Of a stretch of DNA of 64,000 bases, positions 1-36,625 are shown in pieces. The position numbers and the translations under genes were made by a program. Under the pieces are notes generated by a model. That model did not search any database. It worked only from the letters and a program-made list of their open reading frames with translations, and was not told where the DNA came from. The stretch comes from Lysobacter sp. KIS68-7 (lineage in GTDB: Bacteria > Pseudomonadota > Gammaproteobacteria > Xanthomonadales > Xanthomonadaceae), in NCBI RefSeq assembly GCF_021284745.1, contig NZ_CP089925.1, positions 1,240,001 to 1,304,000 on the forward strand, written 5' to 3'. Position 1 is the stretch's first letter, and every line of letters starts with the position of its first letter.

Positions 1-669
1 CTCCGCGCCGGCATCATTGCGCGTAATTTCCGTAACGCCATGCCCCGCGTAAAGAACGCGAGCAGCCTCGACGATAGTGGGCGTCGGTTGGTACCTACCT
101 GACTCCCACCATGAGGCTGAGATTGTCAGTCCCGACGTTTCCCCTAGACCTAGTAGGAGCGCTTCGCGGAGCGTTGAGCCCGAGCAGCCAATCGGCGGCA
201 ATACCCCGTCCGCTACTCCCGCATGTGCCAGCCGTGCTATGCCATTCGCCTCCGTCGCCACAACGACAGGAACAATAGGAAGATCTAGGCTCGAGCTGTG
301 GAAGTACTTAAGGTCCAGCGCGTAATCCCACACCTGGTCGACTGCGGCTCGCGAGAATCGAACTGCACCTACCTTGAATTCGATCACGAACAATGCGTGG
401 TCTAGTACGACCACTGTGTCGATTCGCCGGCCCAAGCGGGGGACATCGAACTCAAGGTAGATAGAGCCTCGACCTGAGAACTCCACCAGCTCTCGTTGCA
501 ATACCGATATCTGACCAACCCAAGCGCCGCGATCTAGTGGAGTGATATCTGCCCACGAGCGCACGACGAGGCCACCGAGAATCGCTTCCGGATCTGCGCG
601 AAGAAAGTCTTCGACGGGCGCGCCATAGGCCCATCTAATTGGACGCTCAACCGCGTCTTCCCCGTACAT
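1..669 (-). CDS. DUF2075-family protein with N-terminal PD-(D/E)XK-like domain, partial
   Basis: The gene leaves the window on the left, so only the first 223 residues are visible. The reading frame is open from an ATG at 669, and an in-frame stop lies 27 bases upstream, which fixes the start. Residues 80-100 read as a PD-(D/E)XK-like core, with D84 in RRIDTVVVLD and E97/K99 in VIEFK. Near the end, YQPTPTIVEAARVLY followed by TEITRNDAGAE matches the run-in to the DUF2075 (Schlafen-group-3-like) helicase domain, whose Walker motifs would lie outside the window. Known family members pair this nuclease-like fold with a P-loop helicase; a nucleic-acid role is inferred. It follows a NERD gene on the same strand after 94 bases. 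Base composition is lower in G/C than the genes to the right. Confidence 0.75.
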   Translation of the reverse strand, partial: MYGEDAVERPIRWAYGAPVEDFLRADPEAILGGLVVRSWADITPLDRGAWVGQISVLQRELVEFSGRGSIYLEFDVPRLGRRIDTVVVLDHALFVIEFKVGAVRFSRAAVDQVWDYALDLKYFHSSSLDLPIVPVVVATEANGIARLAHAGVADGVLPPIGCSGSTLREALLLGLGETSGLTISASWWESGRYQPTPTIVEAARVLYAGHGVTEITRNDAGAE

Positions 670-763
670 GCGAGATTTCCCAGGCCCCTGCCTAGAGAAA
701 TCTTACTCCACGATGGAACTATTCCTATTGGCTCCCTGACGCCATCGCAAGCGCACAGGCTGA

Positions 764-1579
764 TTACTTTTGGTCACCAGTCGGATATCGGATCAGCAAC
801 GCCTGGGCGATAAGGCCCGCCAATTCAGTACTGATCGCGCGTTGGCCCCGCTCATCGGCCATGAACGATGCGCCCCTTCCAGAGGGATTGAAGACACGCA
901 CGTTCTCCCTTGTGTTCCGCCCTGTGATGTCAATCCACCAGCCTGGTAGCGCTAGGGCGGGCTCAACAGGTACCGCGGTATTCAAGGTTTTCTGTAAATA
1001 GTTACGCAACCACTGAGCCTGGCGAGAGGCTTGCTCCAGTGGCGCCTTAGAAACGCAATGAGGAAATCGCAGGGATTCGCCGTCAAACTTCAACTTATGA
1101 CTATCGTTCGTCGACTTAGCTGGTTTACGAACCGACTTGGTCTCAACCATATAGACGGCACGCGGCCCAATTACCACGTGATCCAGGTTGAAGCCTTCAG
1201 CCGGAACGTCGTGAAGCACCGAGCAGCCGGAGGCGACAAGTCGGTTCAATTCTTGTGCGGTAAACAACTCAGCTTTGAGCCCTTCGCGTGCGCGCCGCCT
1301 AAGCGTTCCGTGGCGAATAATGTATGCAACTGCGCCTCCAAAAAAAGCGAGAAAATACGGACCCAGCCAAAACAGCAGAACAAGTGCTGACTGAAGGTTG
1401 TCCGTGTGATCTTCTATCCGCTTTCGTAATTGCTCGCCGGCGCCAAAGATCGCTTTTCCTTCCAGGGGAGACCGCCGCCCGTCGCGTTCTTGCCACTTCC
1501 GATGCAGCCAAAGAAAGGCAATGGCGAGAGCGGTAGGCACAAAGACGGACGCAATCACAAGAAGGGTAGAAGGCGACAT
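764..1579 (-). CDS. NERD-domain membrane-anchored protein
   Basis: A protein of 271 residues. Residues 4-26 and about 64-90 are hydrophobic and look like two membrane segments, with a charged stretch between them. Residues 98-235 form a NERD (nuclease-related) domain: D133 in NLDHVVIGPR and E146/K148 in YMVETKS fit the D...ExK catalytic core of the PD-(D/E)XK fold. The cytoplasmic nuclease-like domain would therefore be tethered to the inner membrane. The natural substrate of NERD proteins is not established. Third codon positions are noticeably A/T-richer than in the genes beyond 1.7 kb, which suggests acquisition by transfer. The DUF2075 gene follows downstream on the same strand. Confidence 0.8.
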   Translation of the reverse strand: MSPSTLLVIASVFVPTALAIAFLWLHRKWQERDGRRSPLEGKAIFGAGEQLRKRIEDHTDNLQSALVLLFWLGPYFLAFFGGAVAYIIRHGTLRRRAREGLKAELFTAQELNRLVASGCSVLHDVPAEGFNLDHVVIGPRAVYMVETKSVRKPAKSTNDSHKLKFDGESLRFPHCVSKAPLEQASRQAQWLRNYLQKTLNTAVPVEPALALPGWWIDITGRNTRENVRVFNPSGRGASFMADERGQRAISTELAGLIAQALLIRYPTGDQK

Positions 1580-1723: not shown

Positions 1724-2116
1724 CTAGAACACTTCCCACCACGCCGGCACCGGAATGAACGGCATGTACTCCTTCCATCCGAACAGGAAGGAGAACGCCA
1801 CATGGATCGCCGGCGACGAGAGGAAGGCCAGCACCAGGTACTTCACCAACTCGCGGCCCGTGAGTCGGAACGCCAGCGGCGGCAGCACCAGCGTCGCGAG
1901 CGCCGGCACCGTGTAATAGATCCACCACGGCAGGCCGGCGTTATTGCCGTACTTGGCGAACACCATCCCACCGACGACCACGATGGAGGCCACGCCCGCG
2001 ATCGCCGCCGCGCGCGGGCGCACGCTGCGATGCCGGGTGACGAGGTGCAGGATCGCGACGAAGGCGATCAGCGAGACGGCGACAAAACTCCAGAAGCGCA
2101 CGGCATCCGACGACAC
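1724..2116 (-). CDS. small membrane protein of unknown function
   Basis: About 130 residues with three to four hydrophobic segments (FWSFVAVSLIAFVAIL, AGVASIVVVGGMVFA, YYTVPALATLVLPPL and a C-terminal one). I place the start at a GTG at 2116 because a purine-rich ribosome site, AGGGGGAAGGG, lies about five bases upstream; an ATG at 2149 in the same frame is the alternative. No family was recognised. The product would be an integral inner-membrane protein. The gene stands alone between the low-GC block and the reductase gene, transcribed in the same direction as both. A short inverted repeat (CACC..GGTG near 1708-1719) lies just past the stop. Confidence 0.6.
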   Translation of the reverse strand: MSSDAVRFWSFVAVSLIAFVAILHLVTRHRSVRPRAAAIAGVASIVVVGGMVFAKYGNNAGLPWWIYYTVPALATLVLPPLAFRLTGRELVKYLVLAFLSSPAIHVAFSFLFGWKEYMPFIPVPAWWEVF

Positions 2117-2165
2117 GGCGACCCTTCCCCCTGAGGCAGACGCCAGCATACCGGGATGGCCTGCA

Positions 2166-3269
2166 TCAACGCGCAAACACCCCGCGGTCGCGCCGCGGCT
2201 CGCAGCGCAGGTACTGATTCGGCGGGCGCACGCTCGCGCCCAACGTCGCCGCTGCATGCCACGGCCAGCGCGGATCCCACAACACACCGCGCGCGATCGC
2301 AATCAGGTCTGCATCGCCATGCTGCACGATCGCTTCCGCGTGCTCGGGTTCGGTGATCAGCCCGACCGCGACCACGGGAATGTCCACGGCCTGCTTCACA
2401 GCGCGGGCAAGCGGCACTTGGTAACCGGGGCCGAGCGGGATGCGTTGTTGCGGATGCACGCCGCCGCTCGACACATGGATGGCATCGCAACCGCGCGCCT
2501 GCAACGCCTTCGCATATTCGATGGTCTGCGCGATGTCCCAGCCGCCGTCCATCCAGTCGGTGCCGGAGACGCGCACGCTCACGGCGCGCTCGCGCGGGAA
2601 GGCCTCGCGCACCGCTTCGAACACTTCCAGCGGGAAGCGCATGCGGTTTTCCAGGCTGCCGCCGTAGCGGTCGCCACGCTGGTTGGAGAGGGGTGACAGG
2701 AACTGGTGCAGCAGGTAGCCGTGCGCGCTATGGATCTGCACGGCGTTGATGCCCAGGCGCGCGGCGCGTTGCGCGGCGGCGGCAAAGGCGTCGCGCACGC
2801 GGTGCAGGCCGTCCTGGTCGAGCGCGTGCGGGGGATGTTCGCCATCGTGTTGCGGGACGGCGGAGGGCGCTTGGGTCTGCCAACCGCGCGCATCGTCGGG
2901 CGGCAGTTGCGCGCCGCCGTCCCAAGGCACTTCACACGAGGCCTTGCGTCCTGCGTGCGCGAGTTGAATCGCGATCGGCATGTCGGACCAGCGGCGGATC
3001 GCGGCGAGCGTCGGGCGCATCGCGGCCTCGGTGTCGTCGTCCCACAGGCCGAGGTCGGCATGCGTGATGCGTCCTTCGGGGAGCACGGCCGTGGCTTCGA
3101 TCGTCAGCAGCGCGGCGCAGCTCATTGCGAGCTGGCCGAGGTGGATCGTGTGCCAGTCGTTCATGCGCCCGCCCTCGCAGGCGTACTGGCACATGGGCGC
3201 GATGACGATGCGGTTGGCGAGCGTGAGGTTCCGGATCGCAAGCGGTTCGAAAAGCATCGGGCGCGACAT
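2166..3269 (-). CDS. NADH:flavin oxidoreductase, old yellow enzyme (YqjM/XenA-like)
   Basis: An FMN-dependent ene-reductase of 367 residues that would reduce activated C=C bonds with NAD(P)H in the cytoplasm. The TIM-barrel signature is complete: C27 and Y29 in IAPMCQYA are the cysteine and tyrosine typical of the YqjM/XenA class, H180 and H183 in QIHSAHGY are the substrate-anchoring pair, and SNQRGDRYGGSLENR is the conserved loop. The ATG at 3269 is chosen because AGGA lies about eight bases upstream and the family normally begins close to MLFEPL; longer in-frame extensions look unlike the family. The physiological substrate cannot be told from the sequence, and the gene is not in an obvious operon. 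Confidence 0.9.
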   Translation of the reverse strand: MSRPMLFEPLAIRNLTLANRIVIAPMCQYACEGGRMNDWHTIHLGQLAMSCAALLTIEATAVLPEGRITHADLGLWDDDTEAAMRPTLAAIRRWSDMPIAIQLAHAGRKASCEVPWDGGAQLPPDDARGWQTQAPSAVPQHDGEHPPHALDQDGLHRVRDAFAAAAQRAARLGINAVQIHSAHGYLLHQFLSPLSNQRGDRYGGSLENRMRFPLEVFEAVREAFPRERAVSVRVSGTDWMDGGWDIAQTIEYAKALQARGCDAIHVSSGGVHPQQRIPLGPGYQVPLARAVKQAVDIPVVAVGLITEPEHAEAIVQHGDADLIAIARGVLWDPRWPWHAAATLGASVRPPNQYLRCEPRRDRGVFAR

Positions 3270-3392
3270 GGGGCGTCCTGGGTTCGGGGGCATGCGCACC
3301 TTAATACGCGCGCGTGGGCGCTGCGTTGAACCACGCGCGCGCAGGATGCCATTGACCTTGTGGGGCCGATCTCGCTGCGCCGGAGGTGCGTC

Positions 3393-31690: not shown

Positions 31691-34600
31691 ATGCGAGTTG
31701 CAGGATGGATCGTGATGGGGTGGCTGGCGTGCGCAGGGTCGGCACACGCGCTGCAGTCAGAGCAGGAGTGCAACGTCAACTCCGAAGGGCATACGGTCTG
31801 TTCGCCAACGAGCACGCCTCCGCCGCCCGTGCCGGAGCCGACGGAAGGCGGGTGGAAGCCTTATCCGATCCACGGGATCGGTCCGCCCGAGTGGGTCGCT
31901 CGCCACGTCTATGAGCTCTACAACCGGCAGACGGGGTTTCCATCGCCGACGGTCGCCGACATCGGCGGCAACGGCACGGAAGGCAACGCCGACGACAGAC
32001 GTTCCTGCGACGGCACAGTCGGCAACCCCATCGTGCCCGCCACGGGCAACAAGCTCGAATCGGAAGTTGAGTTCACCAGCTCGGGTGAAATGCCGCTCTA
32101 CCTGGAACGCACCTGGAATCACCACGGCGGACCGGGGCTGATCTTCGGCACCAAGTGGAGCAGCAACTTCGACCTGAGGCTGGAGGTTGCCACCGACGGG
32201 CAATCCATCACCGCAGCGCGACCAAACGGCGCACGCATTCGCTATGTCCATCGCACCTCGCCATCGGCTGCGTGGTGGGAGGATCGCCCCGAAGGACGCG
32301 GCCGGATCGTCGCCGACGGTGCAGGCGGCCATGTGCTGTATGCGCCCGACAACACCATCGAACGCTACGGCACGCATGGCCGCATCACGAGCCAGCGTAA
32401 TCCGCGCGGCGTCGGCATCGCATTCCAGTACCGCATCCATGCCACACATGGGGCACCGTTGCTGGAACAAGCCACGCACACCTCGGGTCGCACGATCCGT
32501 TTCACATGGACCGACACGCCAATCGGCCCGCAGATGACGCGCGTCGTCGACCCCGCCGGCAACGCCTACGCGTACGCCTACGACGCATACCAACGGCTGC
32601 AGACCGTCAGCCAGCCGGGGACCCCCGGCACCACGATCACATACCACTACCCCACGCGCGACCGCGTCCTGCTCGGCAAGAGCCTGAACGGCGTACGCCA
32701 TTCGACCTTCGCCTACGACGCCAACGGCCGCGCCACGCTCACCGAACATGCGGGTGGCGCAGATCGCCACACGTTCGCCTATACCGACAACGCCGATGGC
32801 ACGCTGATCGTCGAACACCTCAATCCGCTTGGCAAGCGCACGACCTCACGATATCGCGATGGCAAGCTGCTGTCCGCCACGGGGCATGCGTCGGCCTCCT
32901 GTCCGGCGGCATATCGCGAAGTCACTTACGACGCGAACGGATTCACGGACATCGCGTCCGACTTCGCCGGCAACCTAACGGACTACGATCACTCCCCTTC
33001 GGGCCTGCTGCTGCGCAAAGTTGAGGGCGTCGGAACGCCCGAACAACGCACCACCACTTACGCGTGGGACGCGAATGGACGCACGACGAGGCAGACGCTG
33101 GAAGGTGTTTCGCGTGTCGATTACACATATCGAAGCGATGGCCTTCTGTCGCGCGTGACGGTGACGAACCTGACAGCGCAAGGCCGCACCGGCGAATCGC
33201 GCAGCACCGACTATCGTTACACCTTCCACGCCAACGACATGCTGGCGACGATCACCGAGGATGGCCCGGTGGCGGGCGACGGCGATGCCATCGTCAACAC
33301 GCTGGACGCGTTCGGAAATCTCACGCGTCGCGCGAACTCGCTTGGGCACGCGACCACGTGGGCACTCCACACGATGGCGGGCCAGGCCGGTCGGGAGACG
33401 GATGCCAACGGCGTGGTGACGGAACGGACGCACGATGCTCGCGGTCGCGTGCTGACCGAAACGCGTCGCATCGATGGTGTAGCACATACGGCCTCGTTCA
33501 CTTACGACGGTCGCGGAAACCTGGTATCCAGCGTCGCGCCGGACGGCGTGCGAACCTCCTATTCGTACGATGGTGTGAGCCGCCTGGTCGAGGTGTCGCG
33601 CAACGCCTCCTCCGGCTCCACTGGCGCACCTGCTCCGATGTCGTTGGCCCTGCAAGCCGACCCTCCTCCAGAAGAAGAGGACATCGCGCACTTCAGTGCC
33701 ATCGCGCCGATGGCGTGCCACGACTGCGACTACGAAGAAAAACCCGGCGTGCCCGCGACGAAGGGCGTGATCGACAACATCACGATGTCGGCGGGTGAGG
33801 CGACCTTGCGCGGATGGGCGTGCTCGGGCGGCTGGAACAACCCGGTCGATGTCCACGTGTACGTCGGCGGTCCGGCGGGCGTCGGCCTCTTCGTGGTCGG
33901 CACCAAGGCCAACCAGTACAGCGAGCCCGCTATCGGCGCGCAGTGCGGATTGACCACCAGCTTCCACCGCTACGCAATTCCTCTCACGGAGAGCTTCCGC
34001 AGGGCGCACCCGGGCAAGGCGCTGTATGTGTACGGCATCTCGCCGCTGGGCGCACCCAATCCCATGCTGACGAACTCGGGCACCGTCACCGTGCCCGCCG
34101 TGATCGAAGACGCAACGTTCGTCGCCCAGCAAATTCCGACCGCAATTGAGGCAGGTGGCCGCTACACGGTGCGCGTGCAGATGCGCAACACCGGCAACAC
34201 CGTGTGGACCGCGGCGAAGAACTACCGGCTCGGCGCGCAGGATCCGAACGACAACACGCGCTGGGGCGTGCATCGCGCCTACCTTTCCGCGGACGTGCAT
34301 CCGGGGGGAACGGCGACCTTCGACTTCACGATCACGGCACCCGCCGCGACGGGTGCACAGGCCTTCCGCTGGCGCATGGTGCGCGAAAGCGTCGCGTGGT
34401 TCGGGGCGCAGACGCCGACTGTTTCACCCACCATCCATCCGTTCCCGCGCGACTTCCAGCGATTCACTTACAACGCCAACAGCCAGGTGACGTTGGTCGA
34501 AACCGGCCGCGTTGCGCTGGGCGCCACGACGGTGACGCGACGCAGCCGCGTCGAGTACGACGAACTGGGGCGCGTGCGGGTGGTGCGGGGCAATGCCGGC

Positions 34601-36625
34601 CAGCACGTCACCACGACCTACGACGCCAACGACAATCCGATCGCGACTACCGATGCGCTGAACCGCACGACGACCTACCGCTACGACGCGTTGGAGCGCC
34701 TTGTGGAGACGGTCGACCCAGCGGGCGGCCGCACGCAAGTCGCGTACGACGCCGGTGACCGAGTCGTGCGCGTTGTCGATCCGCGCCAACTTGCGACGCG
34801 TTATGACATCGACGGATTCGGCGACGTGTGGGCGCAGCACAGCCCGGACAGCGGCACAACCCAGTTCCAATACGACGTCGCCGGCCAACGCACCCGCATG
34901 ACGCGTGCGGACGGCAGTCACCTGGATTACGAATACGACGTGCTTGGCCGCCCGAGGAACGTCGGCGACGGCGTGCAGTGGCGGCGCTACTGGTACGACT
35001 TCTGCACGCTGGGGGTCGGTCGCCTGTGCCAGGCCGGCGTGCTCACGCCGCAGGCGACGCGCAGCGTCTCGGTCTACACCTACGACGCGCACGGCGGCAT
35101 CCGCTCGCGCCGCGACTCGGTCCATGGCGTGAACGACTGGACGTGGTACGACCGCGATGGCATGGGGCGCCTGACGCGCATCACGCACCCGAATGGCGTC
35201 AAGGTTGGCTACGCGTGGTCGGGCGGCGCCGTGACGGCCATGACCGCCGACCTCGGAGCGGGCTCGATTCCCGTCGCCTCGGGGATCGCCTATGCCCCGT
35301 TCGGCGAAGTCGATGCATGGACATACGGCAATGGCCTGCAGCGCCGGTACGATCGCGACATCGATGGGCGCGTCATCGCCATCAGCGCGCATGACGTGAG
35401 CGTCGTCCGCCAAAGCCTCACCTACCAGCACGACATCGCAGACCGCATTACGCGGATCACGAACGGAATCGATGCGGCGCGGACCCAAAGCTACGCCTAC
35501 GACGCGCTGGACCGCCTCACGCGGGCCAACAGCGAGTCCTTCGCATATGACGCCACCGGCAACCGCACTGCGCGCGACCTGGCGGCCGTGCGGACCACGT
35601 ATGCGACCGATCCTGGTAGCAATCGCTTGCTTTCGACGGCTGGTGGAGAGACCGCATCGTTCACGCATAACGCCAACGGCGACGTGACAGCGTGGTCCTT
35701 GGCGGGAGCGACGCACAGCGTTGTTTACGACGCGCTCAACCGGGTCACGAAGCACACGCGCGGCGGCGTGACGACGGATTACGAGATCGACGCGTTCGAT
35801 CAGCGCGTTGGCAAATCGTCACCGAACGCCGGGCAACGTCGGTTCATCAGCGATGGCCATCGACTGCTGTCGGAAGTGGGCAGTGATGGGAAGTGGAGCA
35901 ACTATCTGTGGCTGGGCAACGAGCTGGTCGGGACGGTGCGCAACGGCGCATTGAATGCCGTGCACAACGACCACCTAGGGCGCCCCGAGGTCGTGACGAA
36001 TGCGTCGCGACAGACGGTCTGGCGGGTCGCAAACGACGCGTTCGGACGCGGAGCGACGCTCGTTGATTCGATTGGCGGTCTCAACATAGGGTTCCCGGGG
36101 CAGTTCTACGACGTTGAATCGGGGAGTTGGTGGAATGGGTACCGCATCTATCTCGATGGGAGGTATTTGCAGACTGATCCGATTGGATTGGTGGGCGGCA
36201 TCAACACTTACGCCTATGTAGGGGCGAATCCAACGCAATATGTCGATCCAGACGGCCTAAGAGGGCTGGTGGTTAGGCCAACCGCGCCGGTTCGAACTGC
36301 GCAAAATCCGAATCAACTTCGATTGCCTTTGTCGCACGCGCCCGGCGCGCAGCCCGCAACGCGATTGTATTTCTCCAACTACAACCGGTTCCAACGCCCC
36401 ATGGAGTACGCCGAATCCATGAAGAGGCAAGCGTGGGACGCACCTATCGGGAAAATGATCTGGCCCGCTTGGGGGCACGAAGATGCCAGAAAATCTTGCG
36501 ATGTAATGGTCTGCGGCCCGAACGTAAATCCCATGGCATTTTCATCCTGCAAGGACCCGCAAACCATCTTTAAGCAACAAGCGTCCAGTCCGGAAAGCTC
36601 CGTACAGAACTGTGCATGCCTATAA
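31691..36625 (+). CDS. Sec-exported RHS-repeat protein with variable C-terminal tip
   Basis: A protein of 1644 residues. Residues 1-21 are a Sec signal peptide. A DUF6531-like region ([28 protein letters not shown]) leads into YD/RHS repeats such as [12 protein letters not shown] and [15 protein letters not shown]. Residues ~640-920 are an unusual insertion: a Cys-containing beta domain, then an NBR1-type Ig-like domain ([20 protein letters not shown]). Repeats resume to the RHS core ([40 protein letters not shown]). The last ~119 residues (from about 36266) form a tip unlike known toxins I can name, with cysteines in [14 protein letters not shown] and NCACL. Codon composition falls in the tip. 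A polymorphic toxin is inferred. Confidence 0.85.

Follow-up and report, generated by a model that had tools for sequence, protein, structure and literature searches.

The window, by which we mean the whole 64,000-nucleotide stretch analysed here, spans 1240001-1304000 on the one 3.25-Mb contig of Lysobacter sp. KIS68-7, with the DNA to its left also readable. As a preliminary description of the sequence had it, the window begins with two minus-strand reading frames, one at 1-669 (223 aa visible, open to the left) and one at 764-1579 (271 aa), the latter lying upstream of the former on the same strand at a distance of 94 bp. Extension to the left gives the first gene a complete span of -1352 to 669 (L002:12648-14669) and a product of 673 aa, the first 223 of the 673 codons falling within the window. 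The first and second kilobases have a GC content of 0.577 and 0.574, respectively, vs. ~0.66-0.69 across most of the window; the GC profile marks positions 1-1680 as the right part of a low-GC cargo block, which as a whole runs from about -2.1 kb to 1.68 kb (~4 kb). The low-GC character attributed to the pair is thus borne out up to its right border, but the accompanying statement that the pair differs from everything beyond 1.7 kb overlooks a dip at 36-37 kb (GC 0.555). That dip is the C-terminal tip of an RHS/YD-repeat protein encoded at 31691-36625, and it resembles an exchangeable polymorphic-toxin end directed against competitors.

The product of the gene at 1-669 is a PDC-S41-type protein, in which an N-terminal PD-(D/E)XK nuclease is fused to a Schlafen-group-3 helicase. 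The PADLOC profile for PDC-S41 (PDLC05014) matches it with 866.1 bits over residues 13-667 (model positions 4-654 of 657), covering 97% of the 673-aa protein, and the start of a DUF2075 helicase that had been read from the visible part proved correct, the complete gene carrying the Pfam domain SLFN-g3_helicase (PF09848, formerly DUF2075) with 252.5 bits at residues 247-637. The nuclease triads proposed for the two proteins are both present and conserved far beyond chance. In PDC-S41 the catalytic codons lie at 418-420 (D84), 379-381 (E97) and 373-375 (K99), and of 103 aligned relatives the 101 without a gap there all keep D84, E97, K99 and Y116, together with the Walker A glycines. The Walker A motif itself (GVPGAGKT, from residue 252) is encoded beyond the left end of the window and, like the DEAQ motif at 348, is intact and conserved. 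Downstream of ExK, the nuclease displays a Q112-x-x-x-Y116 motif; QxxxY in this position is a RecB/Cas4-type signature among PD-(D/E)XK families. The NERD profile scores 13.4 bits against this N-terminus, below the Pfam cut-off of 22.1. For either window protein, a sequence search found no solved relatives. An AlphaFold2 model of the PDC-S41 homologue at locus L023 (48 sequences, pLDDT 86) predicts a nuclease core with the order alpha-beta-beta-beta-alpha-beta followed by the helicase, strand 2 of the core carrying D86 and strand 3 carrying E99/K101; the helicase part of the model matches UvrD best (Z 17.7), with human SLFN11 at Z 16.8. In PADLOC, PDC-S41 has the status of a phage-defence candidate only, and the open-access literature yielded no functional description, which is weak evidence that there is none.

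The gene at 764-1579 encodes the protein for which a membrane-tethered nuclease core had been suggested, and the sequence agrees, with a NERD nuclease-like domain (Pfam PF08378, 56.9 bits vs. a cut-off of 22.1) predicted behind transmembrane helices. Its catalytic codons are at 1181-1183 (D133), 1142-1144 (E146) and 1136-1138 (K148), with the three residues kept in 48, 47 and 46 of 48 homologues, respectively. A model built from five sequences (overall pLDDT a modest 69, ~80-90 in the core) places the domain among PD-(D/E)XK nucleases, with structural matches to NucS/EndoMS, Upx and Can2 (Z 8 each) and McrC (Z 7). By hydropathy count, 29 of 49 proteins have three N-terminal transmembrane segments, a subgroup that we defined in this analysis and that does not include the window protein, which has two predicted segments. 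Compared with its relatives, e.g. the copy in genome G405, it has an internal deletion of 27 residues between the second and third segments that takes in most of the third, and its topology is therefore doubtful. With the strongly positive stretch after the first segment inside and two segments in all, the nuclease would come to lie outside the cytoplasm. Given such a topology, we surmise that the window allele may be altered, impaired or inactive.

To the left of the block lie ordinary genes with a GC content of about 0.67, and in the 54 kb read there we found no tRNA, mobile element or large island. The preliminary description had suggested that the pair may be the edge of a defence island, a view that we abandon: all genes of the left flank are high in GC, and the cargo forms a single compact block of ~4 kb. 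It had also held that left-hand genes of ordinary kind and the same composition would speak against its reading; ordinary they are, but their composition differs from that of the low-GC pair. On the right, the block is followed by a small membrane-protein gene (1724-2134, minus strand, part of the reading frame 1724-2302) and then by an old-yellow-enzyme gene, an order common to congeners; on the left, a DUF gene and a small conserved gene are likewise found in congeners that carry other low-GC cargo. The right-flank membrane-protein gene adjoins other cargo in genomes G467 and G492 and lies near the pair in G405. In the same slot, G492 has a GmrSD protein (GmrSD_N 109.9 bits, GmrSD_C 61.7 bits) and G467 a DUF3427+NOV_C protein, while in G440 a McrC fragment (McrBC 27.3 bits, above cut-off) sits between a tex-like gene and the DUF gene that forms the left flank of the window slot. 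G405 has the pair itself in identical gene order within a partly rearranged neighbourhood. Since the cargo varies between congeners while the flanks persist, we regard the locus as a defence slot and the pair as its cargo, not as the edge of a large island; whole restriction cargos are swapped at a single short locus. These alternative restriction cargos and the PDC-S41 match bear out the defence context that had been assumed from the two domains.

Several further features of this region deserve mention. In G405, whose pair is the nearest to that of the window, the PDC-S41 gene (L140, G405:C1:1575232-1577210) breaks near residue 340 into two frames that overlap, reflecting either a pseudogene or a sequencing error. 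A motif of 18 bp on the left border of the cargo was considered as an integration-site repeat and rejected, since three congeners have a single copy of it in each genome; rather than an att site, it is more likely to be conserved DNA upstream of the small gene next to it. In the window genome and in G492, one and the same intergenic region left of the slot contains tandem arrays that have a period of 21/42 bp and partly palindromic units. Repeats, counting a weaker stretch in G467 and one diverged copy elsewhere in the genome, lie at window positions -2103 to -1835 (L002:11898-12166), L266:8528-9062, L265 about 3090-3360 and G000:C1:2366771-2366988. The unit sequences differ between species, with RNA folding z-scores of -3 to -5, and the stretch at the same position in G467, though repetitive, was too weak to be called by the repeat finder.

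The preliminary reading was to be given up if no recurring neighbourhood turned up in other genomes. Such a neighbourhood exists: a survey found PDC-S41 and this NERD family adjacent in 8 loci and in four relative orientations, with the NERD gene first at L002 (the window) and L140 (G405), second at L020, L023 and L225 (G425, where the pair spans a contig break), convergent at L018 and L022, and divergent at L145 (G171); L023 is from Lysobacter antarcticus and L020 from Lysobacter sp. A03. Spacing within pairs ranges from a 4-bp overlap (L020, L023) to 340 bp. Paired state changes five times on the NERD tree, each change being forced by well supported branches, and five times on the PDC-S41 tree, at least four of them forced. 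Among 297 family genomes, PDC-S41 occurs in 18, NERD in 45 and both in 6, and in 5 of these 6 the two genes are adjacent, which random placement would produce with a probability of about 1e-8 or less; co-occurrence per genome is weakly enriched (6 seen vs. 2.7 expected, P 0.04). An obligate two-gene system should show co-occurrence in nearly all genomes, but the shares are 6/18 and 6/45, with NERD of this family undetected in 12 of the 18 PDC-S41 genomes and PDC-S41 not found in 39 of the 45 NERD genomes. Because adjacency recurs and yet most PDC-S41 genomes are without NERD, the pairing is recurrent but facultative. Other NERD-domain proteins lie near PDC-S41 at L033, L034 and L066. Both component families are already catalogued, PDC-S41 in PADLOC and NERD in Pfam; for the neighbourhood of the two, we found no earlier description in the open-access literature, which is weak evidence of novelty.

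Beyond the pair, one scan returned 378 PDC-S41 relatives from many phyla, and the distribution is patchy (18/297 family genomes, 10/369 class genomes), with PD-T4-2 and NERD+UvrD defence genes among the neighbours elsewhere. Viral and plasmid spread were both considered and set aside, IMG/VR holding one PDC-S41 relative and no NERD among its viral sequences, and plasmids accounting for four distant PDC-S41 records. A second neighbour is a protein of ~120 aa (examples at L028:9426-9800, L239:8495-8860, L011:3600-3965, L049:7888-8238 and others), whose family lies next to PDC-S41 at 11 distinct loci, some of them in Bacteroidota, Chlorobiota and Riflebacteria. Of five members compared with Pfam, four have no match and the fifth has one below the threshold. 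The family was found in 15 of the 297 family genomes, 9 of them without PDC-S41; in all six genomes with both, the ~120-aa gene is beside PDC-S41, with a NERD gene intervening in two, and it comes after the NERD gene at L020 and L023. Sharing of genomes exceeds expectation (6 seen vs. 0.9 expected, P 7e-5), and the family is absent from all loci that have NERD only and was not found in the window genome. As with the NERD neighbourhood, the open-access literature gave no earlier description of this companion, again weak evidence. Recurring irrespective of orientation, the membrane NERD and the ~120-aa protein provide PDC-S41 with concrete candidate partners. We can only speculate, and with some doubt, that PDC-S41 is the central element of a modular defence system in which interchangeable neighbours, either an entry-site membrane NERD or the ~120-aa protein, tune where or when it fires.

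The reading that we prefer, with middling confidence, is that PDC-S41 is a self-sufficient nuclease-helicase effector residing in a defence slot, with NERD as an optional membrane nuclease. We surmise the substrate, the trigger, the membrane role and the additive action of the two nucleases as follows. The pair would be cargo directed against invaders, housed in a defence slot on a Lysobacteraceae chromosome. The SF1-type (Schlafen-group-3) helicase of PDC-S41 may load on foreign or replicating nucleic acid and translocate with ATP, feeding the N-terminal PD-(D/E)XK nuclease, which with its RecB/Cas4-like D...ExK...QxxxY residues would nick or degrade DNA, most likely acting by itself, as Nhi does (see below). 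The NERD protein would be a second nuclease, anchored in the inner membrane. Intact relatives are expected to have their catalytic domain in the cytoplasm by virtue of three transmembrane helices, and there, by analogy with SNIPE, it could cleave DNA as it comes in across the membrane. NERD would be an optional add-on that joins various defence genes and has come to lie beside PDC-S41 repeatedly.

The strongest rival, still short of an even chance, is that PDC-S41 and NERD are functionally unlinked, being independent defence genes that meet in the same few hotspots. An icmF gene is nearby in 5 of the 8 pairs, and this hotspot is also used by PDC-S41 and by NERD separately; icmF or aceE is also close to at least 7 of the 27 further NERD loci in the family. 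Neighbourhoods of icmF and aceE were seen at L018, L020, L022, L023 and L058, and at L027, L028, L239 and L241-L243; these flanks seem to act as hotspots where defence genes of Lysobacteraceae repeatedly insert. Moreover, about half of the 27 family loci with NERD and without PDC-S41 have a defence neighbour (a proportion that has no matched control). Among the 104 proteins within two genes on either side, there are 5 of type IIG restriction-modification and 4 of PDC-S36, as well as a type IV restriction endonuclease, Thoeris ThsB, a type II methylase and an OLD-like ATPase. The PDC-S36-type genes occur within two genes of the membrane NERD at L209, L212, L216 and L231, in lineages without PDC-S41, and represent a candidate second association. 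Part of the adjacency of PDC-S41 and NERD may stem from shared hotspots. Against a purely positional explanation, immediate adjacency is tighter than sharing a hotspot requires, the window/G405 and G171 pairs are away from icmF, and pairing in 3 of 4 lineages has P 0.004 at an assumed 10% adjacency of defence-locus residents.

Of the two-component nuclease system that the preliminary description raised as a possibility, we consider the obligate form improbable, in which PDC-S41 needs the membrane NERD or the reverse, e.g. as a membrane recruiter. Repeated pairing in four orientations and the overlapping genes at L020 and L023 could be taken that way, but the single-gene occurrences counted above, the presence of PDC-S41 in many phyla without NERD, and a window NERD that is structurally altered next to an intact PDC-S41 all speak against it. 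More improbable still is a DNA-repair or housekeeping nuclease-helicase beside an unrelated membrane protein, with no part in defence, for while an SF1 helicase with a RecB-like nuclease and UvrD as top structural match fits repair enzymes too, the patchy distribution, the low GC of a cargo whose slot holds other restriction genes in congeners, and the defence genes next to PDC-S41 elsewhere argue against it.

A self-sufficient PDC-S41 effector with an optional membrane NERD can be compared with several known systems. The nuclease-helicase immunity protein Nhi of Staphylococcus both unwinds DNA and nicks it, in a manner dependent on the SSB of the phage (PMC12904381). Nhi, like PDC-S41, joins nuclease and helicase in one protein and may work similarly, but the match between them (18.1 bits) is limited to the Walker A region of PDC-S41, residues 243-268. 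With Schlafen group 3 (SLFN11, SLFN14), PDC-S41 shares the PF09848 helicase and a structural match of Z about 16-17; its N-terminus, in contrast, has a PD-(D/E)XK fold, and at E up to 1 Pfam reports SLFN-g3_helicase only and no Schlafen core (AlbA/SLFN) domain. By profile, then, PDC-S41 is a member of neither the Nhi nor the Schlafen-core family. As for the membrane partner, PglW of type 2 BREX, matched with 11.6 bits, has a NERD-REase domain inside a defence protein (PMC12839542), but the window site is without a kinase and without BREX genes. SNIPE is a membrane-anchored nuclease that cuts incoming phage DNA (PMC12904381), and the NERD protein, being likewise a nuclease held at the membrane, might act in a comparable way; SNIPE carries DUF4041, for which neither window protein has a Pfam match, whereas the window nuclease is of NERD type. 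The closest counterpart is PDC-S41 of PADLOC, which has the same nuclease-helicase layout and matches the window protein over its full length; the PADLOC model comprises a single gene, whereas at the window a membrane NERD gene adjoins it.
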